From Blastococcus aurantiacus (GTDB lineage Bacteria; Actinomycetota; Actinomycetes; Mycobacteriales; Geodermatophilaceae): DNA of 64,000 nt. Under the pieces are notes generated by a model, which worked only from the letters and a program-made list of their open reading frames with translations, was not told the DNA's origin and did no database searches. The position numbers and the translations under genes were made by a program. Location of the stretch: NCBI RefSeq assembly GCF_900102425.1, contig NZ_FNBT01000005.1:248001-312000 (forward strand), given 5' to 3'. Position 1 is the stretch's first letter, and every line of letters begins with the position of its first letter. Positions 6,387 through 59,856 of the stretch are shown piece by piece.

Positions 6387-7307
6387 GTGACCACATTGCT
6401 CGTCGCTGCGACCGGGGGGCACCTTGCGCAGCTGTATCAGCTGCGACCTCGACTGGTCGCCCCAGGTTCCCCCGTCGTCTGGGCAACATTCGATTCGCCC
6501 CAGAGCCGATCGATGCTGGCCAGCGAAAGCGTCGAGTTCGTGCCGTACACGGCTCCACGCGACTACCGCAGGGTCGCCGCCAACGTTCCCCTCGCCATAC
6601 GGATCCTGAAAAGGCATCAGATCGACGCCGTAATCAGCACGGGCTCCGGCATTGCGCTATCCTTCCTCCCCGCCGCCCGAGCCATGGGCAGATCAGCGCA
6701 CTACATCGAGAGTGCCGCACGAAGCGAGGGACCGTCCCGCACTGGGCGCATCCTCCAGCGGATACCCGGCATTCAACTGTCGGCGCAGTACCGCTCGTGG
6801 GCAAGACCGCCCTGGGACCTTAGTGTTTCGGTCTTCGATGATTTCGTGGCCACACAGATGACTGAGCAGCCCATTCATTCCGTGGTGGTCACGCTAGGTA
6901 CTATTCAGGGCTACGGCTTCCGACGACTCCTCGAGAGGCTCGTGACCATCATCCCAGCCGACTGCGACGTTCTGTGGCAGACCGGGGAGTCGGACGTTGA
7001 CGGCTTGCCGATTACCGCCCATCCGTACTTGCCTCAGCATGAATTGCACTCCGCCATGGCGCAAGCAGACGCAGTGATCGCCCATGCAGGCATCGGTAGC
7101 GCCTTGGGGGCGCTTAATGCGGGGCGCCGACCCATCTTGGTCCCTCGCCGATCCGCTTACGCGGAACATGTAGACGACCATCAGCTACAGATCGCGAGGG
7201 AACTCCATGGCCGAGATCTAGCGCTCTATCGAGAGGCGCTGGACCTCAGCTGGGAAGACGTTCGGTCCGCCGCCAGATGGCGCGTCGCCCCACCTCCCAG
7301 CACGTAG
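6387..7307 (+). CDS. Alg14/Alg13-like glycosyltransferase fusion (GT28-type)
   Basis: 306 residues from GTG 6387, with AGGAG six bases upstream. The N-terminal half (LLVAATGGHLAQLYQL, then AVISTGSGIALSFLP) resembles Alg14/EpsE. The C-terminal half (VVVTLGTIQGYGF, HPYLPQHELHSAM, IAHAGIGSALGALNAGRRPILVPRR) is the nucleotide-sugar-binding Alg13/MurG C-terminal domain. Family members transfer GlcNAc or a related sugar to a lipid-linked intermediate. Both halves are on one chain here, whereas many systems use two proteins. It is divergent from the gene at 6234. Confidence 0.8.
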   Translation: MTTLLVAATGGHLAQLYQLRPRLVAPGSPVVWATFDSPQSRSMLASESVEFVPYTAPRDYRRVAANVPLAIRILKRHQIDAVISTGSGIALSFLPAARAMGRSAHYIESAARSEGPSRTGRILQRIPGIQLSAQYRSWARPPWDLSVSVFDDFVATQMTEQPIHSVVVTLGTIQGYGFRRLLERLVTIIPADCDVLWQTGESDVDGLPITAHPYLPQHELHSAMAQADAVIAHAGIGSALGALNAGRRPILVPRRSAYAEHVDDHQLQIARELHGRDLALYREALDLSWEDVRSAARWRVAPPPST

Positions 7308-7424
7308 GGAGGACACGCGATAGTGGCGCGGTCACTCCGCACGGCTTCGATCACTTTTGCGGCTTGGCCATCGCGTTCGGCTGCCGGAGCAGGCCCCGGT
7401 AGCCGATCCTAATGCATTTCGCGA

Positions 7425-8222
7425 CTACGGGCTCCACTCCGTGTAGTAGCTTTCTTCATTAATCAGGTACCGCACGGTAGGCACGGGAACGTGCCGAACG
7501 TCGTGACGCCTGGAGAAACGGTAGATGAACTCCCAGTCTTCCTTTGGAAGGGTCCGCTTAGTACGCGGGATGCGGCTAAAGTGGAGCGAGGGACGTCTGC
7601 GCACCAGGACGGCGTTGATATCGAGGTAGTTCGAGTCATCCGCCAGCGCCTTGCGATCAAAGTCGCGTGTGAGGATATCCACCAACGTGCCGTCAGGTAG
7701 GTGCCGCTGCAAGGCCGTATACACCATGTCGACATCCCTCCCGAGCGCCTCGAGTGCAATCTCGAGATGATTCGGCATCCACTCGTTGTCGTCATCGAGG
7801 AAGGCAACGTACTTCGACTGCGTCAACGAGATGCCCACGTTTCGTACGAGTCCCAGGATGGCCGTGTTGTGGCTCAGGGAGACGGCTCGCAGTCTCGAGT
7901 CCTCCGGCAGCTTAGGCAGTCCTCCTCCATCGTCCACGACGATGATGATTTGGTCGTCGACAGTTTGCGAAAGAGCCGACGCGACGGCCCGCTGCAGCAG
8001 GTCAGGCCGCTTGTAGGTCGGGATAACAGTTGCCACCGTCGCTGGCCCGAAGTCACGGACCTGCTCGGCCAGTCGACGCGTCTCACGGGCTTCCGTCGCC
8101 CGCGCGGCCAGAGTCCCGCGGACATGCACGACTCGATTGCGGGCTTCGAAAAGAGGCCAAATACCGATGTGGCGGCGAAGAGCACGACGTACCGAGGATC
8201 CGACGCTCGCCAGTTGCACCAT
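7425..8222 (-). CDS. GT2 family glycosyltransferase with basic N-terminal extension
   Basis: 265 residues. After about 60 basic, helix-prone residues the GT2 domain begins ATVIPTYKRPDLLQRAVASAL and contains IIVVDDGGG and the DxD-like FLDDDNEWMP. The C-terminus is KEDWEFIYRFSRRH, matching the acceptor ED motif. It stands alone between two plus-strand genes; start ATG 8222 has no clear Shine-Dalgarno. Probably adds a side-chain sugar in the same polysaccharide. Confidence 0.8.
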   Translation of the reverse strand: MVQLASVGSSVRRALRRHIGIWPLFEARNRVVHVRGTLAARATEARETRRLAEQVRDFGPATVATVIPTYKRPDLLQRAVASALSQTVDDQIIIVVDDGGGLPKLPEDSRLRAVSLSHNTAILGLVRNVGISLTQSKYVAFLDDDNEWMPNHLEIALEALGRDVDMVYTALQRHLPDGTLVDILTRDFDRKALADDSNYLDINAVLVRRRPSLHFSRIPRTKRTLPKEDWEFIYRFSRRHDVRHVPVPTVRYLINEESYYTEWSP

Positions 8223-13735: not shown

Positions 13736-14797
13736 TCAGGGAGTGACGAAGCGAACCCCGCCGTCCTTGCCCGGTGCACCGGCCGCGCGTGCGGCCATGC
13801 GGGCCCGCTGCGGAACCACGATGTACTTCGGGTCCTTGGTGCTTGCGATGCCGGCCTCGAAGACGCCGAAGCGGGTGAGCAGCGAGCCCGCCGCCAATAG
13901 CGCCCCTGACGTAACCGCCCCCCACCGGCGGCGCCCGGCCACCACGGCCAGCCCCAAGCCCATGGTGGTGCACGCCTTGGCCGCGCGCATGAACTGGCCC
14001 GGCCGTCCCTCGTGGTACGGCTCCGCCACGACGCTCTCACTGCCCTCGATGCCCCGGATCACGGCGAGTTCGATGCCGGCACCGAGAATCGCCATCTTCC
14101 GCGCGGGCTCGGCCTCCCCCACCGGCGTGAACGCCATGCAGATTCCGCCACCAGCGGCCATCGCCGACCCGCCGAACACGAACGGCAGCTTCGTGTGGAA
14201 CTCGTGCCACGACGGCACCGCCGTGTTGGCCAGCAGCACGCCGGTGTAGGTTGCCAGCGGCCCGCCGAAGATCGCGGAGACAACGCCGCCGAACCGCTTG
14301 AGCCGCGGGAACCAGCCCAGCAGCTCCACCGCCGCCGTCGCCCCGGCCGCCGCGCTGAACGGCGCCAGGATGTAGGTGCCCACCGACAGCGGCGAGGTCA
14401 CCTTCAGCACGCGCAGCATGTGCAGGAACCGCTCGGGACGGCCCAGGTCGTGGATGAGGAAGACCACCGACAGGATCGATCCGCCGCCTGCGGTGAGCCG
14501 GGCGGCGCGGGTCAGCGCCGGCCGGTCGGTGACGTCGGCCAGGGCGCCGAGAATCGCCGAGGACCCCGCCGCCCCGCCCAGGAACAGGTAGAGCGGCACG
14601 TCGGGCGACTTCCACACCGGCGTCTTGACGATCTGCCGGCCGTAGTACGAGGTGAATTCGACGTCGTCAACCATCGCGACCTCGCCGCGACCCCGACCGC
14701 CACCACGCCTGTGGCGCCTCTTGGTCGTCTGTTGCGTCGCCGGCCCGCGGTCGGCCTGGCGCCACCCGGCGCCCGGGCTGGTGATCCCGCCGGTCAT
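13736..14797 (-). CDS. Formate dehydrogenase membrane subunit (NrfD/PsrC family)
   Basis: 353 residues. ATG 14797 overlaps the fdhB stop (ATGA), which fixes this start although a second ATG begins at MVDDVEFTSYYGRQIVKTP. From there the protein has YYGRQIVKTPVWK, LFLGGAAGSSAILGALAD and further helices, the pattern of NrfD-like quinone-reactive integral subunits with 8-9 helices. It should accept electrons from the FdhB clusters and reduce menaquinone. The first 65 residues (TGGITSPGAG..., Arg-rich) are unusual and may be cytosolic. Unlike E. coli FdnI it has no cytochrome b556 haem pattern that I can see. Confidence 0.85.
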   Translation of the reverse strand: MTGGITSPGAGWRQADRGPATQQTTKRRHRRGGGRGRGEVAMVDDVEFTSYYGRQIVKTPVWKSPDVPLYLFLGGAAGSSAILGALADVTDRPALTRAARLTAGGGSILSVVFLIHDLGRPERFLHMLRVLKVTSPLSVGTYILAPFSAAAGATAAVELLGWFPRLKRFGGVVSAIFGGPLATYTGVLLANTAVPSWHEFHTKLPFVFGGSAMAAGGGICMAFTPVGEAEPARKMAILGAGIELAVIRGIEGSESVVAEPYHEGRPGQFMRAAKACTTMGLGLAVVAGRRRWGAVTSGALLAAGSLLTRFGVFEAGIASTKDPKYIVVPQRARMAARAAGAPGKDGGVRFVTP

Positions 14798-15861
14798 GAG
14801 CGCCGCGAACCGAGGATCGCCGTGACGGCTACCCCGACCATCATCACCGCGGCCTTGCCGGCCGCCTTCCACATGGCCGGTAGGTCACGCGTGGTCACGA
14901 TCGGGTCCGGCGGCAGGCCGTAGACCTCCGGCTCGTCGAGCAGCAGGAAGAACGCTCCCACTCCCCCGACGCCGTCGCTCTCGTCGCGCCCGTACAGCCG
15001 CGCCGTCTCCACGCCCTGACCCTTGAGCGTCTCCAGCCGCGCGTCGGCGCGGGCCTGCAGCTCATCCAGGTCGCCGAACTGGATCGACTGCGTGGGGCAG
15101 GCCGTCGCGCACGCCGGCTGCAGCCCGTCGGTCAGCCGGTCGTAGCACATCGTGCACTTGAAGACCCGGCCGTCGTCCTTGCGCTGGTCGATGACGCCGT
15201 AGGGGCAGGCGGCGACGCAGTAGCCGCAGCCGTTGCAGATGTCGCCCTGCACCACCACGGTGCCGAACTCGGTGCGGAACAGCGCTCCGGTCGGGCAGAC
15301 GTCCAGGCAGCCGGCGTGCGTGCAGTGCTTGCAGACGTCGGAGCTCATCAGCCACCGCACCTGCTTGTCCGCCCCGCTCTGGCCGGTCTGCGGGTCGAAC
15401 TCGCTCAGCGCCTCGGCGTTGAGCACGCTGCTCTGCTGGGCGTTGGCCAGGCTGACGTCATCCCCCGAGACTGCCGGGGACGGGCCGTGGTCGTGCCGGT
15501 CGTCGCCGGGCCGGCCAAAGGTCGGCATCGGTAGGTCGACCGCGCGGCTCTGCTCGATGAAGGCGACGTGCCGCCAAGAGTTGGCGCCCAGCTGGCCGGT
15601 GTTGTCATACGACATGCCGGACAGACCGAGGGCGTCCTTCACGCCGTGCGAGTCGTCCATCGGGAGCGTGTTCCACTCCTTGCAGGCCACCTCGCAGGCC
15701 TTGCAGCCGATGCAGACCGAGGTGTCGGTGAAGAACCCGACGCGCGCCGGGTGCTCCTCGACGTAACCGGACTGCTCGGTCACGTCGGGCACCGGGCCGT
15801 ACAGCCGGTTGCCGGGGTCGCGGCCGGTGAAGGCCGCGCTCGCGGAGCTGACCGAGGTCAT
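14794..15861 (-). CDS. fdhB: Formate dehydrogenase iron-sulfur subunit
   Basis: 355 residues from ATG 15861, with GAAGGG a few bases upstream. Four ferredoxin-like Cys clusters are visible in order: CIGCKACEVACKEWN, CKHCTHAGCLDVCPTGA, CNGCGYCVAACPYGV and CTMCYDRLTDGLQPACATACP, giving four [4Fe-4S] centres. A C-terminal hydrophobic stretch (KAAVMMVGVAVTAILG) resembles the single TM anchor of FdnH/FdoH. It passes electrons from FdhA to the membrane subunit. It starts 28 bases after the fdhA stop and overlaps fdhC by four. Confidence 0.95.
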   Translation of the reverse strand: MTSVSSASAAFTGRDPGNRLYGPVPDVTEQSGYVEEHPARVGFFTDTSVCIGCKACEVACKEWNTLPMDDSHGVKDALGLSGMSYDNTGQLGANSWRHVAFIEQSRAVDLPMPTFGRPGDDRHDHGPSPAVSGDDVSLANAQQSSVLNAEALSEFDPQTGQSGADKQVRWLMSSDVCKHCTHAGCLDVCPTGALFRTEFGTVVVQGDICNGCGYCVAACPYGVIDQRKDDGRVFKCTMCYDRLTDGLQPACATACPTQSIQFGDLDELQARADARLETLKGQGVETARLYGRDESDGVGGVGAFFLLLDEPEVYGLPPDPIVTTRDLPAMWKAAGKAAVMMVGVAVTAILGSRRS

Positions 15862-15889
15862 GCCGCGCCCTTCGCTCTGTTGGTGCCCG

Positions 15890-18800
15890 TCACAGGTTCG
15901 AGCCCTCGCCGGCGTCGGCCTCGACCGGGTCGCGGCCATTCACCCCGACCCGCCCGGATTGCACTCCGGCCCGGCGGCGGTAGTCCTCCACCAAATCGAG
16001 CATCGCGGGCCCGCGTGGACGTCGGCCCGGGATGATGTCGGCGGTGCTGACCTTGTCCTCCTGGATGTGCGTGTTCGGGTCCAGCGCGATGCCCAGCAGG
16101 TCGTTGGCCGAATCGCCGGTGGAGATGCCCGCGTAGGACCAGTGGTAGGGCATGCCGATCTGGTGCACGACCTGCCCGCCGCGCAGCCGGATCGGCCGCA
16201 TCCGCTCGGTGACCAGCACCTTCGCCTCGATAGCGGTCCGCGCGCTGACCAGCGTGGCGTACTCGCCGTTGCTCAGCCCGCGCAGCCGGGCCAGCTCGGG
16301 GCTCACCTCGACGAAGAACTCCGGCTGGAGCTCCGAGAGGTAGGGCAGCGTGCGACTCATGCCGCCCGCGGTGTGGTGCTCCGTCAGCCGGTAGGTGGTC
16401 ACCTGGAACGGGAAGACCTCGCTGCGGGAGGGGTTCTCCCGGTTCCACGGGCCGGGGATGCGCTCCACCGTCGGGTTCGCCTGGATCGGGTACAGGGCGT
16501 TCTCGACGACGGACTCCACCGGCTCGTAGTGCGTCGGCAGCGGGCCGTCGACCACCCCGGCCGGCGCGAACAGCCACGCCTTGCCGTCGCCCTGCATGAC
16601 GAACGGGTCGGTGCCGGCCAGCGCGTCCTGCGCCTTGGCGCCGTCCGGCGGCACGTAGTCCGGGCGCTTGTTCTTCTCGAAGTCTGGGACGTCGGAGCCG
16701 GTCCACTCACCGGCGTCCTCGTCCCACCACACGTACTTCTTGCGCTCGCTCCACGGCTTGCCCGCCGGATCGGCCGAGGCACGGTTGTAGAGCATCCGGC
16801 GGTTGAGCGGCCACGCCCAGCCCCATTCGGAGCCGGCCAGCCCCATCTGCTTCGCCGGCACCCGCCGGGCGGCCTGGTTGACCTCATCGGCGTAGACGCC
16901 GGTGTAGATCCAGCAGCCGCCGGAGGTCGAGCCGTCGTCCTTCATCTGCATGTAGGAGTTCAGCGCGCGCCCGTCCGGACCGACGCCGTTGATCTCCCGC
17001 AGCACCGCCTCGGCGTCGGGGTCCTGCGTCTCCCCGTGCACCGGGTAGTCCCAGGTGAGGTCCAGCAGCGGGCGGTCGCGCGGGTCGGTGGAGTCCGCCA
17101 GCCGCTCCCGCAGCATCCGGCCGAGGTGGTAGTAGAACCACAGGTCGCTGCGGGCGTCGTTCGGCGGCTCGACCGCCTTGTGTCGCCACTGCAACACCCG
17201 TTGGGTCTGGGTGAAGGTGCCTTCCTTCTCGACGTGCGTCGCCGCCGGCATGAAGAAGACCTCGGTGCCGATCGTCTCGGGGGCCAGCTCGCCCGTCTCG
17301 TGCTCGGGCCCTTCCTTCCAGAAGGTGGCCGACTCGATCATCTGCAGATCGCGGACGACCATCCAGTCGAGGTTGGCCAGGCCGAACCGGTTCATCCGGC
17401 CGTTGGGGTGCCCGACCGAGGGGTTCTCCCCGACCAGGAAATAGCCGGAGACCTTCCCCTCGATCATGTCGGCAATCGTCCGGTAGGAGCTGTGGTCGCC
17501 GTTGATCTTGGGCAGGTAGTCGAAGGCGAAGTCGTTCTCCGCCGTCGCCGCGTCGCCCCACCAGGCCTTGAGCAGGCTGGTCATGTACGCGCGCTTGTTG
17601 CCCCAGAACCCGGCCTTGCCGGCGGCGTCGGCGACGTACTCGTCGAGCGTCGCGTGCTGCATGGCGTGCGGCATCGGCAGGTATCCGGGCAGCAGGTTGT
17701 ACAGCGTCGGGATGTCGGTGGAGCCCTGAATGCTGGCATGCCCGCGCAGCGCCATGATCCCACCGCCGGGACGGCCGATGTTGCCCAGCAGCGTCTGCAG
17801 GATCGAGCAGGTGCGGATGTACTGCGCGCCCACGCTGTGCTGCGTCCAGCCCACCGAGTACACCCAGGCCGTCGTCCGGTCGCGGTTGCTGTTGTCGGTG
17901 ACCCACTTGGCGACCTGGAGGAACACCTCGGGCTCGATGCCGCAGACCTCGGACACCATTTCCGGGGTGTAGCGGGCGTAGTGCCGCTTGAGGATCTGGA
18001 AGACCGAGCGCGGGTGCTGCAGCGTCTCGTCGCGCCTGGGCTTCGCCGGGATCGTCGGGCCGCCGCTGCCGGCCGCCTGCGCCCGGTCGGTCTTCTTGAC
18101 GTCCGGGTGGTCGTCGGTGCGCTCCTGCTCGGCGGCCTCGGCCGGCTGCTCGGCGCCCGAATGGTTGGGCTCCTCCGGGTCGTACTGCCAGCTGCTGTCG
18201 TCGTACATGCGGTTCTCGGCGTCGAAACCGGAGAACAGGCCGTCGAGGTCCTCGGTGTCAGCGAACTCCTCGTTCACCAGGGCCGAGGCGTTCGTGTAGG
18301 CGACGACGTAGTCCTTGAAGTACAGGTCGTTGTCCAGCACGTACTTGATCAGCCCACCGAGGAACGCGATGTCGGTGCCCATGCGCAGCGGCACGTGCAG
18401 GTCGGCGATCGCGCTGGTGCGGGTGAACCGCGGGTCGATGTGCACGATCTTCGCGCCGCGCGCCTTTGCCTCGCTCACCCACTGGAAGCCCACCGGATGG
18501 CACTCGGCCATGTTGGAGCCCTCGATGACGATGCAGTCGGAGTTCGAGAGGTCCTCGAGGAAGTTGGTTGCGCCACCACGGCCGAACGAGGCACCCAGAC
18601 CGGGCACCGTGGAGGAGTGCTATATGCGGGCCTGGTTCTCGATCTGTATGGCGCCCAGGGCGCTGTACAGCTTCTTCATCAGGTAGTTCTCTTCATTGTC
18701 CAGCGTGGCGCCACCCAGGCTGGCGATGCCCATCGTGCGGTTGACCCGCTTGCCGCCGTCCTCCTCCTGCCAGCCCTTGCGGCGGGCCTCGAGGACGCGG

Positions 18801-19189
18801 TCGGCGATCATCTCCATCGCCGTGTCGAGGTCCAGGTCCTCCCACTCCGTCCCGTACGGACGGCGGTACTTGACCGTGGTGACCCGAGTCGGGCTGGTGA
18901 CGAGCTGCTTGCTCGCCGACCCCTTGGGGCACAGCCGGCCGCGGTTGATCGGCGAGTCCGGGTCGCCCTCGATCTGGACGATCTTCTCGTCCTTCACGTA
19001 CACGTTCTGCGCGCAACCGACCGCACAGAAGGGGCACACGCTCTTCAAGACCCGGTCGGCCGTGGCCGTGCGCGACACCGTCGCCTCGGTCGCCTTGCTG
19101 CGGGCGGCCTTGCCGCGCCCGAACGGGTCCGAGCCGGTGAGCTGCCGGTACACCGGCCAACTGTCGAGCCAGGTCTTCACCCGGATCAT
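15890..19189 (-). CDS. fdhA: Formate dehydrogenase catalytic subunit, selenoprotein with TAG-encoded Sec
   Basis: 1099 residues if TAG at 18622-18620 is read as selenocysteine (residue 190). The N-terminus has the [4Fe-4S] ligands Cys52, Cys55, Cys59 and Cys87 (CPFCAVGC ... LCPKGSASKQL). Then comes IENQARI-Sec-HSSTVPGLGASFGRGGATN, the exact position of Sec or Cys in molybdopterin formate dehydrogenases. The frame continues unbroken for 909 residues to the molydopterin-binding C-terminus. ATG 19189 was chosen because MIRVKTWLDSWPVYRQLTG matches actinobacterial homologues; the frame stays open further upstream without similarity. A routine gene caller would split it into 18620-19189 and 15890-18607. 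There is no twin-Arg signal. It oxidises formate and feeds FdhB and FdhC. No selA, selB, selD or tRNA-Sec is in the window. Confidence 0.93.
18590..18622 (-). promoter_or_regulatory. bSECIS-like hairpin after the TAG selenocysteine codon of fdhA
   Basis: Reading the minus strand, TAG (18622-18620) is followed by 11 bases and then GGTGCCC (18608-18602), loop GGTCT (18601-18597) and GGGTGCC (18596-18590). The arms pair along seven positions, five Watson-Crick and two G-U. The GGTCT loop matches the GGUCU core of the E. coli fdhF bSECIS, and its 18-base distance from the codon is within the bacterial range. It should bind the C-terminal domain of SelB. Confidence 0.85.
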
Positions 19190-19430
19190 GTTGCCACCGG
19201 CGCCGCCATCCGGCGCGACGACCGCTCCCAAGGATCCAACCCGGCGGCCGTCCTCCGTGCGGTGCTTTGCGCCGCAGTCCCGGGACATGTCGTGAGTCCG
19301 CGGCAACGCATCCCACCGCAGGTTGAGCCAATCTGCCCCGTATAGGCCGGCGCGGGACTCGATCCCATCTACGAGGTCATCATCGATGAGCTTGCCCCTT
19401 CCCCCGCCCGGCGCCCATATTCCTATAGGG

Positions 19431-20399: not shown

Positions 20400-20909
20400 T
20401 CAGGGCCCTAAATCGCGGACTCTTCGCGCTGGCGTCCCGGCATACAGGCCGTGCGGTTCGCAGTCGGAGATGACGGTGGCGCCAGCGGCCACCACGCAAC
20501 CTTCACCGATGTTGACTCCCGGCAAGATTGTGGCTCGAACGCCGATCCATGTGCCGTCACCGACAAAGATGGGGGCGGCCGTGACCGCACCGGCGCGCTG
20601 TTCCGGCACTCCTTCGTGGTGGGTGCTGGTGACTAGGACGACGTGCGGGGCTAGATGACACCTGGCGCCAATGGTGATAGGTGCGAAGCTGTCGAACCAG
20701 CAGCCGTAGTTGACGTAGGAACCCCGACCGATTGTCACGCTGGGGCCGCTGAACCACGTGCTGGCACTGATTTTGCACTTCGCCAGGTCCAGGCCGGCCA
20801 GGCGCAGCAGTCGCCACCGCACCTGCGGCGGCACGATCGGTGAGCCAATCAACCCGTTGACGAGCCTGTCGCGCAGGATCCGGCGCAACTCGGTACCCAC
20901 GCGCCCCAT
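20400..20909 (-). CDS. Hexapeptide-repeat (LbH) acyltransferase
   Basis: 169 residues. From about residue 55 the sequence runs in left-handed beta-helix hexads (VTIGRGSYVNYGCWFDS, ITIGARCHLAPHVVLVTSTHH, IFVGDGTWIGVRATILPGVNIGEGCVVAAGATV) and ends LYAGTPARRV. The catalytic His is in STHHEG. This is the WcaF/LacA/NodL-type O-acetyltransferase group that decorates sugars, fitting the nearby surface-glycan genes. The start is M at 20909; the first 45 residues are basic and amphipathic. Confidence 0.85.
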   Translation of the reverse strand: MGRVGTELRRILRDRLVNGLIGSPIVPPQVRWRLLRLAGLDLAKCKISASTWFSGPSVTIGRGSYVNYGCWFDSFAPITIGARCHLAPHVVLVTSTHHEGVPEQRAGAVTAAPIFVGDGTWIGVRATILPGVNIGEGCVVAAGATVISDCEPHGLYAGTPARRVRDLGP

Positions 20910-21239
20910 GAGCGAGACCTTACGGTCAACGCCTGCCCGAGGGCCGAGACTGGGCCGCTAGGGCGCGCCCGCTTAGAGCTTCGAGGCGTGGTGGTCCATT
21001 CGGGTGAAGCGCTCTGCCAGCCCGCGATGCCGCCCATGGGGAGTCCCAAGCCGACCTGGAGGAGCCTTTCAAGTGGTGCGACGACTATCTCGAGGAGCTC
21101 GGCTTTTGATCTTGCCGTTCGCGACGCACTCGCGAGCAGCGCGAGTTGTTGTTTCGGCCGGCCGGAGTCCCAAACGGCCTATGACACCGCAGGCGAGTAT
21201 AGGCCGCGATGAGCGGCTGAGAAAACTTTCGCCGCGTGG
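20910..21239. other. 330-base region between two minus-strand genes
   Basis: No gene is supported. One plus-strand stretch ending about 21109 reads ESQADLEEPFKWCDDYLEELGF before a stop and looks protein-like, but it has no start and no recognised family, so it may be decayed coding DNA. Confidence 0.3.
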
Positions 21240-22283
21240 TCAGACGAGGATGAGCGGCTTCCAGGTGCCGTCCTTGTCCAGGTAGCGGTTGCCTTTCTGG
21301 AGGGTAGGGAGAGAGCCCTTGCGGTCCCCGGCGGAGTACTGGACGGCATAGCGCCAGTCGGGGCCGAAGTCGCAGTCGGTGACCTCGAAGGCGCCGGCGA
21401 CGGCGCCACCGGAGCGCCACGTTATTCCGCCGCCGTTGAGGTAGGAGTTGCGCAGCCGGACGTTGGACGCGCCGCCGTTGGCGTTCTCCGTGAAGAAGGC
21501 CGCGTTGAGGGCGTCTCTCCCGTCAGGCCCATGCGCCCAGGGGCCGAGGTCGAGGGTGCAGTTCGCCAGAGTGAGCCCGTCGACGCCGCGGATTTGGATG
21601 CCGTCGGCGTGCGCGCCAGCGGCGGGCTGGAAGCCGTGCACCCAACAAGTGTCGAACACCAAGTCGCGGGCGAGCTGGCCCCGGTCGGAGGTGATGTGCA
21701 GCCCGTCGTGCGGAAGGTCTCGGATGTCGAGGTTGGAGAAGCGTCCGCCGGTGTGGGAAGACACTCCGAGCCCGCCGCGGATCGTGGACCACGACACGTT
21801 CACGGGGTCGCCGGGCAAAACGAGCAGGCCAGCGGCGAAATAGGAGTCGACCGCAGCGCCGCCTGTCATGCGGACGGGCTTGGTGAACCGCTTTCCGACG
21901 TGGCGCTCGCCCGGCTTGATAGTGACCAGGTCGCTGTCGGCGAGAGCGCCGACACGGTGCCCCGTGTTCTCGGGGCCACCGCGGGCGCGCTTCGACTGCT
22001 GGGGCTCGACTAGATCGCCGTACTCTCGTGTGCCATCAAGATCGGTCGGTGCGGCGGACTCCGACGAGGTCGGTGCGGCGGACTCCGACGGGGTCGGTGC
22101 GGCGGACTCCGACGGGGTCGGTGCGGCGGACTCCGACGGGGTCGGTGCGGTGGACTCCGACGGGGTCGGTGCGGCGGACTCCGACGCTGCGGTCGCCCCC
22201 GGGCTGCGATTCGGTTCGTCGTCGCTTCCGCAGGCGGTCACCATGAACACCGCAGCAAGGCCCACCAAAGCTATCCGGCGCAT
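21240..22283 (-). CDS. Lipoprotein with octapeptide repeats and a right-handed beta-helix
   Basis: 347 residues. The signal peptide MRRIALVGLAAVFMVTAC ends in a lipobox Cys (residue 18). Residues about 33-80 are a spacer of near-identical eight-residue units (SESAAPTP). The rest resembles pectate-lyase/NosD-type beta-helices: short strands with HADGIQIRGVDGLTLANCTLDLG and VRLRNSYLNGGGITW. It is likely an envelope protein that binds or cleaves polysaccharide, with the Ser/Pro spacer lifting it through the wall. No catalytic residues could be assigned. Confidence 0.75.
   Translation of the reverse strand: MRRIALVGLAAVFMVTACGSDDEPNRSPGATAASESAAPTPSESTAPTPSESAAPTPSESAAPTPSESAAPTSSESAAPTDLDGTREYGDLVEPQQSKRARGGPENTGHRVGALADSDLVTIKPGERHVGKRFTKPVRMTGGAAVDSYFAAGLLVLPGDPVNVSWSTIRGGLGVSSHTGGRFSNLDIRDLPHDGLHITSDRGQLARDLVFDTCWVHGFQPAAGAHADGIQIRGVDGLTLANCTLDLGPWAHGPDGRDALNAAFFTENANGGASNVRLRNSYLNGGGITWRSGGAVAGAFEVTDCDFGPDWRYAVQYSAGDRKGSLPTLQKGNRYLDKDGTWKPLILV
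22045..22188 (-). repeat. Six-copy 24-bp tandem repeat inside the lipoprotein gene
   Basis: Six units of 24 bases (GTCGGTGCGGCGGACTCCGA core) start at 22045, 22069, 22093, 22117, 22141 and 22165 with few differences. Each encodes eight residues of the Ser/Pro/Ala spacer. The unit is a multiple of three, so copy-number change would alter spacer length without a frameshift. Confidence 0.9.
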
Positions 22284-22417
22284 GGGGTCATCCCGTCCTC
22301 GCGATAGACGGCACCGTACCCATTCCCCGCGGGAAGTACCGCTCGCCCAGAGTAGGCCGCTCAGAGCACCAACCGGCCCGCTGGGTCGGCGACTGCGTCG
22401 AGCTTACTTTGGCGGCA

Positions 22418-22829
22418 TGAGCCGTCGGGCGGCGGCGACCACAATGGTCCTGTGGTCGCTGTCGTCGCGGCACTCACGCTGGGCGCGTCCCTGGGTGGGC
22501 TCTTCGCCGAGGCGCCACCACGCTTCAGCGCGCCGACAGCCTCGAGTGGACAGCACCGGCGACGTGGGAGGCGTAGCCAACGTGCTGCTGTTTATCCCTG
22601 CGGTCTGCTCTGCTGGCTGATGGCTCGAGCCAGCGGGTGGCTGGTCTGGCTGATATGCGTCGCCGTCTAGATTCGCGTGGAAGCGGCACAGCTTCCTCCA
22701 CCCGGACGGAACGCCACACCGATGGACGTCATCACCAACAGCACCGGAGTTGCGCTGGGGGTCCTGCTGCATGCCGGCTTGCAGCGCCTTCACAAGCCCG
22801 GGCGGAAGTCGCCGCAGCGGCAGGCGTAA
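22418..22829 (+). pseudogene. Frameshifted VanZ-family membrane protein remnant
   Basis: Pieces of one VanZ-like protein appear in order but in different plus frames: VVAVVAALTLGASLGGLFAEA, then DVGGVANVLLFIPA, then GLLCWLMARASGWLVWLICVAV, then VEAAQLPPPGRNATPMDVITNSTGVALGVLLHAGLQRL up to TAA 22827-22829. VanZ proteins contain just such an N-V-L-L-F-x-P helix and an E-x-x-Q-L-x-x-x-G-R-x-x-x-x-x-D-V-x-x-N-x-x-G signature. At least three frame breaks are needed, so the gene is dead. Confidence 0.65.
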
Positions 22830-22992
22830 AACGTGCCGATCGGCCCGTGCTCGGCCCACCAGACTGACGGATTCGCAGTTTCAGTCGTCGAGCGAACCGC
22901 TGCGCCTGCGCCATGGGCACTGGATAGCGATCCTTGCGTGCACCTGCATGAACAGCAGACCCGCTGTAAGGGTCTTCGGTCGCAGCGCAGGC

Positions 22993-23121
22993 CTAGACCA
23001 GGACGTCGCCGTCCAGGTCGAGGCCTAGTGCGGCGGCCGCTCCGGCGGCCATCAGCCAGAAGCCGATCGAGAGGTAGCGCCGCACGGCCTCGGCCGGCGG
23101 ATGCTGCAGAACGTGCTCCAC
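22993..23121 (-). CDS. Small single-pass membrane protein (42 aa)
   Basis: GTG 23121 has AAGGGGGT about five bases upstream. The peptide starts MEHVLQHPPAEAVRRYLSIG, continues as one hydrophobic helix (FWLMAAGAAAALGLDLD) and ends GDVLV. It is cytosolic-charged then membrane. No family recognised. It overlaps no other gene and is separated from the TasA-like gene by a strong hairpin. Confidence 0.5.
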   Translation of the reverse strand: MEHVLQHPPAEAVRRYLSIGFWLMAAGAAAALGLDLDGDVLV

Positions 23122-23230
23122 GGCTACCCCCTTCGTCGTTCGCAAGGGGAGAAGCTATGGCTCCCGCGAGGGCTTCGCCCCGCGGCTGATGCGGATGTGA
23201 CACGAGGGGCACACCGCACCCGACTCGTCA

Positions 23231-23273
23231 CCGTTCCCATCGGGGCACCCCGTGGTCGCCCCGATGGGAACGG
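23231..23273 (-). terminator. 16-bp perfect inverted repeat, likely terminator
   Basis: CCGTTCCCATCGGGGC (23231-23246) and its exact complement (23258-23273) flank an 11-base loop. It lies 55 bases beyond the stop of the TasA-like gene, the expected place for a terminator of that gene. There is no U-tract, which is common in Actinobacteria. Confidence 0.6.
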
Positions 23274-23327
23274 TTGGAACGAGTCCCGCCGGGGAGCGCC
23301 GGTCCCCCGGCCGGCGCTCCCCGCAGG

Positions 23328-23942
23328 TCAGCGGGCGCCGCCGTCGCGCTGAGCGGCGGTGAAGACGAACTCCAGCGAGCTGCTCTGGTTCTGCATCAGG
23401 TCGCCACCCGTGGTCGGGAAGGAGACCGTGGCCAGCAGGTGGTCGGTCTTACCGGCCTCCAGGCTGAGCGCGCCGGGCAGAACGGTGTTGGTCACGACCG
23501 GCCCCGTGTAGAGCTGGTCGGCACCGGGCGCACAGGTCCAGGAGGCACCGGAGCGCACCCACGCGACCTCGCAGGTGTCGATCTTCAGCTGCAGGCCGTG
23601 CACCTTCTCGGTGTCCAGCCGGCTGGAGACGGCCGCCGAGGACCCGAGGGTCACCGAGGACAGGCCGACGTCGCCGCCGTTGCGCAGGTCCATTGGGAAG
23701 TAGCCGACGTCGCCGGGCAGCATGTTGGCGGTCGTCACCGGCACCGGTGCGGTGGTGCCTGCGGCCGAGACGTCGATGGACAGCACACCGGTGTCCACGC
23801 CGGCGTCGACCGCCGAGGTGGTGTCGGTGAACGAACCGAAGGTGCCGATACCGGCGACGGCCGCTGCCGCCCCGACCACGACGATCGAACCGACCACCTT
23901 GCCGGCGCTGCGCCGACCGGTGGTGATGGTGTTGGTGCTCAT
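23328..23942 (-). CDS. TasA/CalY (camelysin)-like secreted surface protein
   Basis: 204 residues. The N-terminus is a signal peptide (KVVGSIVVVGAAAAVAGIGTFGSFTDT) of the SipW-dependent style, in which the sequence after cleavage begins S-F-T-D/S-T. The body is beta-rich: ANMLPGDVGYFPMDLRNGGDVGLSSVTL is the TasA-type block found in biofilm fibre proteins. GGGGGGAT lies upstream of the ATG. No SipW-like peptidase gene is adjacent. Actinobacterial members are usually of unknown function. Confidence 0.75.
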   Translation of the reverse strand: MSTNTITTGRRSAGKVVGSIVVVGAAAAVAGIGTFGSFTDTTSAVDAGVDTGVLSIDVSAAGTTAPVPVTTANMLPGDVGYFPMDLRNGGDVGLSSVTLGSSAAVSSRLDTEKVHGLQLKIDTCEVAWVRSGASWTCAPGADQLYTGPVVTNTVLPGALSLEAGKTDHLLATVSFPTTGGDLMQNQSSSLEFVFTAAQRDGGAR

Positions 23943-24063
23943 GCTCGGATCCCCCCGGGCTGGCGAGAGCGGCTGTTCCGCTCCTGTCTCGCCATCGACC
24001 TTGGGCCCGCATCCGCACGTGCGGCCCGAGGCTTCCGCAAGGAACCCGCAAGATCCGAAGGGC

Positions 24064-24582
24064 TCAGCCGTCGGTCAGATCCGCCTGCAGCAGCAGGGTG
24101 TCCAGCCAGCGGCCGTGCTTGTAGCCGACGCCCCGCAGCCGCCCGGCCTCCACGAAGCCGAACGCGCCGTGCAGCCGCACCGACGACTCGTCCCCGCCGT
24201 CGGCGACCACCGCGATCACCTGACGCGCCCCTGCCGTCCGCGCCGCGTCGAGCAGCGCGCCCAGCAGCGCCCGGCCGATGCCCCGGCCGGTCCGCCCGGG
24301 CGCCAGGTAGATGGTGTCCTCGACGGTCTGCCGGTAGGCCGGCTTCACCCGCCACGGCGCCACGTACGCGTACCCGGCCGGTTCCCCCTCGTCCTCGGCG
24401 ACCAGGAACGGCCAACCGACGGCGGTCAGGTCCGCGAGCTTCGCCGTCCACCAGGCCGCGTCCGGCGCCGTCAGGTCGAACGTGGCCACGCTGTGCTCGA
24501 CGTAGTGGGCATAGATCGAGGCGATCGCCGCAACGTCGTCCGGGGTGGCCGGACGGATGACCGGCGCTGGCGGGGTGTTCAC
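24064..24582 (-). CDS. GNAT N-acetyltransferase, phosphinothricin-acetyltransferase-like
   Basis: 172 residues from GTG 24582 (a TTG nine bases earlier is an alternative). RPATPDDVAAIASIYAHYVEHSVATFDLTAPD and YAYVAPWRVKPAYRQTVEDTIYLAPGRTGRGIGRALLGALLDAAR match the Pat/MnaT group; RTGRGIG is the acetyl-CoA pyrophosphate loop. The C-terminus GFVEAGRLRGVGYKHGRWLDTLLLQ is also typical. It probably acetylates amino-acid analogues such as methionine sulfoximine. Monocistronic. Confidence 0.85.
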   Translation of the reverse strand: MNTPPAPVIRPATPDDVAAIASIYAHYVEHSVATFDLTAPDAAWWTAKLADLTAVGWPFLVAEDEGEPAGYAYVAPWRVKPAYRQTVEDTIYLAPGRTGRGIGRALLGALLDAARTAGARQVIAVVADGGDESSVRLHGAFGFVEAGRLRGVGYKHGRWLDTLLLQADLTDG

Positions 24583-24622
24583 GGCGGGCAACCCTAGGCC
24601 GACGCGAGACGCCGCCGAGGGG

Positions 24623-26692
24623 TCAGAGCCTGTGCTCAGGACGGCGGCGGGTGCGTCCGCCGAGGATGAGGAGGAATCCGACCGCCAGCAGCCCGCTCGC
24701 CACGGCGACGTAGGTCACCGGCTGCACGTTTTGCCCCGTCATCGGGAGGCTGCCGTCGGCCGGCTCCGCCGAGGCCTCCGCCGCGGCCACCGTCACGTCC
24801 ATCCGCAGCAGGTGCGGCTCGCCGTCCGGGTCCACGCCGTAGGCGACCAGCGAGTGCTCCCCCACCTCCAGGCCCGGCGGGACGACGACGGCCTGAGAGA
24901 AGGTGCCGTCGGCGTCGGTGGTCACCTGCCCCAGCGTCGTCGGCGTGGAGTGGATGACGATGGTGACCGTCGAGAAGGGGAGGAAGCCGTCGCCGATCAC
25001 GGTGATCGCCTCGCCCGGCGACGCCTTCGTGATGGGCCCGCGGTCGGTGGTGAGCGTCAGCGGCGTCTCCGGCGCAGACTCCGGGATCTGCGGGGCCTCG
25101 ACCGCGACGCTGGTCCGCACCGTGGCCGGCGTGCCGGCGACCCCGCCTGCTCCGTACGGCGTCACGGTGTACGTGTACGACGTCCCCGCGACACCGCCGA
25201 GCACGCACGACAGCCCTGTCGTGTCGCAGGACGCCGAGCCCGGGTCCGCGGTCACCCGGTACCGCTCCGCCGGCGAACCGGTGGCCGGCGCCCGCCAGCT
25301 CACCAGCACAGCGGAGCGCTCGGGCGCCGTGGTCAGGCCGGTCGGGGCTCCGGGGGCCGACGGCGCGGGGGCCTCGGGCGCCGGGGTCGTCGGGGGTGCC
25401 GGCGGCAGGACCGGGGTGGACGGAGCGGTCACGGTGAGGGTGGCGCTGCCGACGCCGTTGGTGGCGACAGCCAGGCCGCTGACCGCGGACCGGCCGATCG
25501 TGTACGTCCCGGCAGGCGCCGACACGGGCACCGAGACCACGCAGTTGTCCGCGAGCGGCACACGGCCACCGGTCAGCGTGACGGTGCGGCCGTTGGGGGA
25601 CAGCGAGCCGCCGCAGTTGCTGGTCCGCTCGCCCCCGGCGATCTCCATGCCCGCGGGCAGGGTGAAGGTGTAGCCGAGGCCGCTCACCTCGGTCCGCGTG
25701 CTGTTCAGCACGCTCAGGTCCAGCAGCACGGGAGCACCCGCAGCCACCTCCGAAGCGCGGAATGCCGCCGACATGCTCGTGCCCTGGAAACCGACGAACG
25801 TCTCCTGGGCGCGGACCCGCGTGCCGGGCCTGGAGCCGAGGTTCCACTGCGTCATGAAGCCGGTGTCGTGTTCGCTCGCCGCGACGGCGAAGCCGACGTT
25901 CCCCCCTTCGGCGACGGTGTCGTACGGCGAGTCGAAGGGGCCCGACGTGGCGCCGTCGAAGGGCTTGCTGCCGGGCACCTCGCGCTGCCCCACCAGCTTC
26001 CCGCTCCCCGGGTTCACGGAGATGACCGACCGCACCGGCGAGGTGAGCCCGACACCGAAGCCCTCGGTTCCACTTCCCGGAGAGGTGTCACCGCCGCTGT
26101 AGAAGCGGACCGGATCAGTGTTCCCGGCGGGGATCGTGAAGGTGTACGTATCGCGGAAGAAGTGGTTCGGGAAGGTGTAGGCGACCCTGCGGTCGACCGT
26201 GTACGTCCGGCCGTTCTTCACCGCGGTGTAGCGCAGGTGTGCCGTTGCGTCGCCGGTCGTCGAGGGCAGCCCCTTCGCCGCGGCCCCCGACGTTCCGACG
26301 ACCGTGACGCTGGTCCACGAGCTCCCACCGCCCGACGCGCCGCTCTCGCCGAAGAGCGTGCCGCCGACGTTGAGGTGCGGACCTGCTCCGGTGAGGCAGC
26401 AGTACTGGACCGAGTTGGCGAACCAGATCTGATCGCTGGCGGCGGGGGCCGGCACGCCCATCCGGTGAGCAGACGCGTTGAGCACGATGCGCAGGCCGTC
26501 CCGGCCGTCCGACGCCGTGCCGCCACCCGGATTGAGCACGACCTGGCCTGCGCCGTGCTGGTCGCCGGCGGCCTGAGCCGGCGGAGCGGTGGCGACCACA
26601 ACGCCGGACGTGGCGAGCAGTGCGACGACGAGCACCAGGAGCGCACGCGTTCGACGTCCTCGTGCCGACAGGGAACCACGCGAGATGGCCAC
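24623..26692 (-). CDS. LPMTG-anchored cell-wall surface protein
   Basis: 689 residues. A long signal peptide (RTRALLVLVVALLATSGVVVATAPPAQA) is followed by an N-terminal beta domain (GDQHGAGQVVLNPGG...), a DUF11-like repeat region with paired Cys (ERTSNCGGSL ... ADNCVVSV), a Pro-rich hinge near residue 430, a fibronectin-III-like domain (APGAPTGLTTAPERSAVLVSWRAP), and an Ig/IPT-like domain (VIGDGFLPFSTVTIVIHS). It ends SLPMTG, a hydrophobic helix and RTRRRPEHRL, a complete sortase signal. Sortase E/F-type enzymes would attach it. Divergent from the c-di-GMP gene pair. Confidence 0.8.
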   Translation of the reverse strand: MAISRGSLSARGRRTRALLVLVVALLATSGVVVATAPPAQAAGDQHGAGQVVLNPGGGTASDGRDGLRIVLNASAHRMGVPAPAASDQIWFANSVQYCCLTGAGPHLNVGGTLFGESGASGGGSSWTSVTVVGTSGAAAKGLPSTTGDATAHLRYTAVKNGRTYTVDRRVAYTFPNHFFRDTYTFTIPAGNTDPVRFYSGGDTSPGSGTEGFGVGLTSPVRSVISVNPGSGKLVGQREVPGSKPFDGATSGPFDSPYDTVAEGGNVGFAVAASEHDTGFMTQWNLGSRPGTRVRAQETFVGFQGTSMSAAFRASEVAAGAPVLLDLSVLNSTRTEVSGLGYTFTLPAGMEIAGGERTSNCGGSLSPNGRTVTLTGGRVPLADNCVVSVPVSAPAGTYTIGRSAVSGLAVATNGVGSATLTVTAPSTPVLPPAPPTTPAPEAPAPSAPGAPTGLTTAPERSAVLVSWRAPATGSPAERYRVTADPGSASCDTTGLSCVLGGVAGTSYTYTVTPYGAGGVAGTPATVRTSVAVEAPQIPESAPETPLTLTTDRGPITKASPGEAITVIGDGFLPFSTVTIVIHSTPTTLGQVTTDADGTFSQAVVVPPGLEVGEHSLVAYGVDPDGEPHLLRMDVTVAAAEASAEPADGSLPMTGQNVQPVTYVAVASGLLAVGFLLILGGRTRRRPEHRL

Positions 26693-59742: not shown

Positions 59743-59769
59743 TCGGCGTGCGGGACGGCGGGCTCGCAG

Positions 59770-59856
59770 CGGAGGGCGTGGGATTCGAACCCACGATGGG
59801 TGTTACCCCATAGCGGTTTTCAAGACCGCCGCCATCGGCCACTAGGCGAGCCCTCC
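59770..59856 (-). tRNA. tRNA-Ser(UGA)
   Basis: Minus strand folds as a class II tRNA: acceptor GGAGGGC with GCCCTCC, anticodon loop CTTGAAA with anticodon TGA (59822-59820) on stem GCGGT/ACCGC, a long variable arm, T-arm GTGGGTTCGAATCCCAC, and discriminator G. The 3' CCA is not encoded. About 87 bases, normal for Ser. Confidence 0.95.

Follow-up and report, generated by a model that had tools for sequence, protein, structure and literature searches.

The formate dehydrogenases FdnG and FdhF of E. coli have a UGA codon for selenocysteine (Sec) and depend on a UCA anticodon. The protein described here presumably resembles them in its N-type architecture and in the kind of SECIS loop. For Geodermatophilaceae, formate dehydrogenases with Sec at UAG were reportedly described by Mukai in 2016.

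In the parts of PMC5330540 drawn upon here, three Geodermatophilaceae genomes are presented with a CUA tRNA-Sec and with formate dehydrogenase and UGSC selenoproteins, a TAG-containing AhpC gene is given for Blastococcus saxobsidens DD2, and the CUA/UAG findings in the family are credited to Mukai 2016. Excerpts of PMC5133445 give UAG for Sec in Blastococcus, and excerpts of PMC10778597 and PMC8124441 refer to UAG as a Sec codon that occurs naturally. The first-pass annotation, which held that reassignment of UAG to Sec had already been published, was right in substance judging by these parts of PMC5330540 (Geodermatophilaceae) and PMC5133445 (Blastococcus), and the present case is one more instance of this known recoding, in another Blastococcus-type genome. 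As far as the excerpts go, it agrees with the published systems in enzyme name, codon, CUA tRNA-Sec and bacterial family; beyond the three genomes in those parts of PMC5330540, the comparison presented here adds a further genome, a family-wide pattern, a UCA sister lineage and an ATA codon linked to the Sec codon.

The fdhA locus and its in-frame TAG

The window (the whole 64-kb stretch of DNA analysed) belongs to a 4.16 Mb draft genome of 18 contigs (G000). On its minus strand, the fdhA frame 19189-15890 comprises 1100 codons with only two stops: codon 190 is TAG, and codon 1100 is the terminating TGA (Table 1). The peptide around the TAG reads ENQARI*HSSTVPGLGASFGRGG. When read through, FdhA scored 1915.1 bits against NF041513 for actinobacterial formate dehydrogenase (cut-off 1400) and 963.8 bits against TIGR01553 for FdnG (cut-off 814.2). 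The TAG was found, as had been proposed, at the Sec site of the homologues and in frame within an otherwise intact FdhA. The accompanying proposal of conserved flanks and intact fdhB and fdhC genes also held, with FdhA above the family cut-offs and the downstream ORFs uninterrupted. With the standard code fdhA is split into two ORFs in the ORF list, in line with the prediction that normal annotation would yield two broken genes.

Table 1. Features of the formate dehydrogenase locus (positions in the window; SECIS nucleotides are numbered with the TAG as nt 1-3).
Feature	Position	Strand	Remarks
fdhC-like NrfD membrane subunit	13736..14872	-	ORF limits; true start may be internal
fdhB, 4Fe-4S subunit	14794..15861	-	uninterrupted; ATG at 15861 is the preferred start; ORF can open at 15939
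fdhA, FdnG-type formate dehydrogenase catalytic subunit	15890..19189	-	1099 residues if the TAG is decoded as Sec; ends at TGA
SECIS hairpin	18590..18608	-	nt 15-21 paired with nt 27-33; GGUCU apical loop at nt 22-26
In-frame TAG, Sec codon	18620..18622	-	codon 190 of 1100
Codon -1, ATA (Ile)	18623..18625	-	directly before the Sec codon

Both fdhB and the NrfD-type gene lie downstream of fdhA in the same direction. The best match of FdhB was TIGR01582 (182.6 bits, below the 334.7 cut-off), and the product of the third gene matched PF03916 (36.3 bits, cut-off 25.8) and no NCBIfam model; the membrane anchor of this formate dehydrogenase looks to be of a type other than the cytochrome b gamma subunit of FdnGHI. 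A 1178-codon ORF on the opposite strand (15809-19345) is in our reading a shadow ORF of GC-rich DNA. Among 28 ORFs of the window picked by a rough coding filter, four ended in TAG and 24 in TGA. A second formate dehydrogenase-like protein is encoded elsewhere in the genome (G000:C11:205693-207741; TIGR01591, 564.5 bits, under cut-off), without an internal stop.

The hairpin behind the TAG was compared across FdhA sequences with TAG or TGA, and its loop GGUCU was unchanged in all 81. In 28 rows hand-picked from these 81 for variety, 98.9% of the stem cells were paired, the covariation was 0.356 compared to 0.119 in shuffles (0/500 as high), and versions slid out of register reached at most 61%. 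Across the 71 TAG rows, pair 18-30 was always paired (GU in 41, CG in 20, GC in 7 and UA in 3 rows), pair 15-33 was broken in two rows and pair 17-31 in one. RNAalifold recovered the same hairpin unaided. Single-sequence folds of the window depended on the length taken, and at 50 or more bases only the top of the stem was kept, inside a longer stem. The Rfam model SECIS_3 (RF01989) matched positions 18574-18619 with 24.7 bits (E 0.0013), under its gathering score of 63.

Together with the tRNA-Sec and sel genes described below, this evidence makes it very probable that fdhA encodes a selenocysteine formate dehydrogenase with Sec specified by UAG. By the established bacterial Sec pathway, SerRS would load serine onto the tRNA-Sec, SelA together with selenophosphate from SelD would convert the tRNA-bound serine into Sec, and SelB, tethered by the SECIS loop, would bring the Sec-tRNA to the ribosome. 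There the CUA anticodon would decode UAG at the SECIS site in competition with release factor 1, and UAG elsewhere in the genome could remain a stop.

The tRNA-Sec and the sel genes

Only one tRNA was found by ARAGORN within the 64-kb window, a tRNA-Ser(tga) at 59769-59856, and the absence of a CUA tRNA-Sec from the window, noted in the first-pass annotation, was confirmed. The genome search that had been suggested for such a tRNA was positive: the sequence at G000:C16:148127-148218 scored 64.2 bits against RF01852 (cut-off 47) and has the anticodon CUA (CTA in DNA). In total, the RF01852 search of the genome gave eight matches, two over the cut-off and six under it; the second was the tRNA-Ser(tga) of the window itself, slightly above the cut-off with 48.2 bits, and the seven lesser matches were named by ARAGORN as three tRNA-Ser, one tRNA-Tyr, one tRNA-Leu and two tRNA-Met. 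The CUA tRNA-Sec showed a long variable arm and a G before CCA, as well as mismatches in the acceptor, D and anticodon stems of the model, a pattern common to its relatives. The bases past its seventh acceptor pair do not prolong the acceptor stem, and the T stem can reach six pairs (GGCGGG/CCCGUC). These features point to a 7/6 layout instead of 8/5, and by eye the listed CUA and UCA relatives look the same.

The search for selA, selB and selD, suggested along with that for the tRNA, found all three beside the tRNA-Sec, each above its NCBIfam cut-off. Downstream of the tRNA follow selA (L009:5126-6457; TIGR00474, 416 bits, cut-off 267.9) and selB (6448-8193; TIGR00475, 289 bits, cut-off 242.25), and selD (L009:3519-4526; TIGR00476, 388 bits, cut-off 125) is placed divergently beside this cluster. 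The active-site residue of SelD seems to be Cys in our reading of its motif.

Insertion of an ordinary amino acid (Ser, Cys or Gln) at the UAG, through another tRNA or through unconverted Ser-tRNA-Sec, is the alternative that survives best, and it is still very improbable: unconverted Ser-tRNA-Sec could place Ser at low selenium, but the dedicated CUA tRNA-Sec, the SECIS and the agreement of codon and anticodon across lineages argue against it as the explanation. Pyrrolysine at the UAG is less credible still. ARAGORN does label the CUA tRNA-Sec as tRNA-Pyl(cta), a name that seems to follow the anticodon; however, this tRNA fits the tRNA-Sec model above the cut-off, adjoins selA and selB and has the variable arm and the G before CCA described above, and the same position of FdhA is TGA in the outgroups. 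That the TAG is a real stop in a pseudogene, or a sequencing error, can be practically dismissed. A standard gene finder would be expected to give two pieces, as the ORF list does, but 70 further named loci carry this TAG; the codons near it vary synonymously, and the protein is conserved before and after it.

Distribution of codon and anticodon among relatives

The reading of UAG as Sec was followed through the 112 genomes of the GTDB family and beyond. With a search pattern open after the T, the FdhA Sec site was TAG in 44/44 sites from 39 of the 112 genomes, a tally that misses sites with HSA in place of HSS. In 80 named FdhA loci, the 70 of Geodermatophilaceae type had TAG and the 10 outgroup loci TGA. 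Since the same codon stood at the same place in all 44 sites and in 70 of the 80 named loci, the TAG is not due to chance. A search of the order with FdhA matched 266/397 genomes; among the matches listed (150 rows), 80 rows from 72 genomes of the family all had TAG, and 70 rows from 66 genomes outside it had TGA only.

Within the GTDB genus of the window, in our reading Blastococcus, the FdhA region of one genome (G002) was identical to that of Blastococcus atacamensis P6, and the closest named region to that of the window was from Blastococcus sp. DSM 44205 (91% over 4435 bases). The UGA-Sec FdhA sequences of other Actinomycetota (Amycolatopsis, Kibdelosporangium and others; L196-L201, L203-L206) showed 68-70% best-segment identity and shared the Sec position, the SECIS loop GGUCU and its register, whereas their Sec codon is TGA preceded by ATT, where the window has TAG preceded by ATA. 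No match to fdhA was found in plasmid DNA; in the protein search the best ten of the listed plasmid records reached about 63% identity, and 3/1058 records were at 60-80%. A sequence titled UNVERIFIED_ORG: Bacillus sp. AZ43 (L134) contains a Blastococcus-like FdhA with TAG (87% identity), and its name looks wrong. Two apparent peculiarities were discarded: double recoding in the FdhA paralogues of G008, G023, G028, G051 and G107 ("1 TGA, 1 TAG"), where the TGA is the normal terminator, and a second FdhA TAG in G030, which sits just upstream of the protein start.

The codon before the Sec codon was ATA in 71/71 TAG sequences including the window and ATT in 10/10 TGA sequences (L127-L206 and the window). 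ATA is otherwise uncommon in these genes: of 2851 Ile codons counted in parts of the 70 named genes with TAG, 120 were ATA. It does occur away from the Sec site, often at position -35 (36 loci), and ATA before TAG was rejected as a general rule, as GAT or GAC precedes the TAG in the 23 UGSC rows that have one.

Of the 112 family genomes, 109 gave a hit to the tRNA-Sec model at E 1e-8. The anticodon, read in 44 of these 109, was CUA in 37 genomes (nine genera, g1-g4 and g8-g12) and UCA in seven (three genera, g5-g7); the two model matches in G071 were discarded as tRNA-Ser. No fdhA of the window's type was found in the nine genomes of g5-g7. Genera g6 and g7 (G070 to G074) were shown to contain another formate dehydrogenase (TIGR01591, under cut-off) with one TGA, the site of which in G071, G072 and G074 was read as NIDSCNRT-TGA-HAPSVVGL, and the families searched gave no TGA selenoprotein in g5, a UCA genus.

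An rpoB tree was built from 24 of 30 genomes, four g5 genomes as well as G071 and G073 being without an rpoB match. The 14 CUA genomes formed one clade (100/100) and the three UCA genomes a separate one (100/99), and one outgroup genome was placed closer to the CUA clade with support that is not strong (90/84). Because of this placement, the UCA genera may fall outside a strict Geodermatophilaceae. As the outgroups use UGA and the CUA genomes form one clade, a single change on the CUA stem suffices, and from these sequence comparisons we infer that UGA/UCA would have been replaced by UAG/CUA once, in the cultured Geodermatophilaceae lineage, with the tRNA and the selenoprotein genes changing together.

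Further selenoprotein genes and a possible dual Sec code

The UGSC family gave 95 matches in 54 of the 112 genomes, of which 72 contained one TAG, 23 were without a stop and none contained TGA. The UGSC copy in the genome of the window (G000:C10:2301-2726; L253) has the TAG, with a possible SECIS hairpin, and is a second UAG selenoprotein gene there. Among 31 UGSC sites read, 23 were TAG and 8 TGC. All 23 TAG rows can form a hairpin in the FdhA register, with the loop AGUGU (22 rows) or AGUCU (one row); in one hairpin the lowest pair is mismatched, and two compensated pairs occur in one divergent row. For many of the rows the RNAfold minimum was a fold other than the SECIS-like hairpin, and the UGSC hairpin therefore rests on register and pairing.

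An AhpC/TSA-like protein with one in-frame TAG was observed in two of 20 genomes searched (G008:C1:130325-130606 and G111:C22:504646-505029). All six PF00578 matches in the genome of the window were without a stop.

One genome, G058, whose FdhA region is identical to that of Geodermatophilus sp. LHW52908, differs in its tRNA content. It contains a CUA tRNA-Sec near selB and TAG in both FdhA and UGSC, and also a second tRNA-Sec with a UCA anticodon (C17:1169-1263; L010). About 315 bases from the latter lies a CMD/AhpD-like ORF (C17:1579-2157; PF02627, 28.2 bits, cut-off 23) with an in-frame TGA at a CxxU-like site (RCFY-U-MESH), behind which a hairpin can form, in our reading two bases nearer than that of FdhA. 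Only one selB match above cut-off was detected in G058, so that the two tRNAs would depend on one and the same resident machinery. On these grounds G058 is a tentative candidate for reading both UAG and UGA as selenocysteine in one cell.

The UCA tRNA-Sec of G058 was probably acquired. At E 1e-30 the CMD gene was found in one of the 397 genomes of the order, namely G058 itself; no match was found in viruses and phages, and in plasmids only relatives below 60% identity. The cassette is located at the contig end in low-GC DNA, the first 6 kb having a GC content of 0.62-0.66 compared to 0.73-0.79 for most of the remainder, with ORFs that we read as transposase-like at 6-9 kb. The tetranucleotide correlation with host loci was lowest in the first 4 kb (0.71) and 0.81-0.85 at 4-16 kb; only the outermost part of the contig stands out, since stretches at 28-36 kb also gave 0.80. 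Contamination by the whole C17 contig is unlikely, and positions 20600-26600 of the contig match other Geodermatophilaceae (up to 85% over 3 kb); an assembly chimera at an insertion element is still conceivable. Genomes with several tRNA-Sec genes are described in the parts of PMC5330540 drawn upon here, and none of these is described there with both CUA and UCA. As far as the open-licence literature goes, the co-occurrence of the two in one genome, with the UCA tRNA beside a TGA selenoprotein candidate, is possibly new.

For annotation, the consequence of the recoding is that the standard code turns one selenoprotein gene into two ORFs and that ARAGORN tags the cognate tRNA as pyrrolysine. 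When the Sec codon changes in nature, as here, a stop-codon recoding can be followed along the line of descent in the tRNA, the codon and the mRNA signal alike. The family allows a paired comparison between genera with UGA/UCA and genera with UAG/CUA, alongside a single genome in which both may be present.
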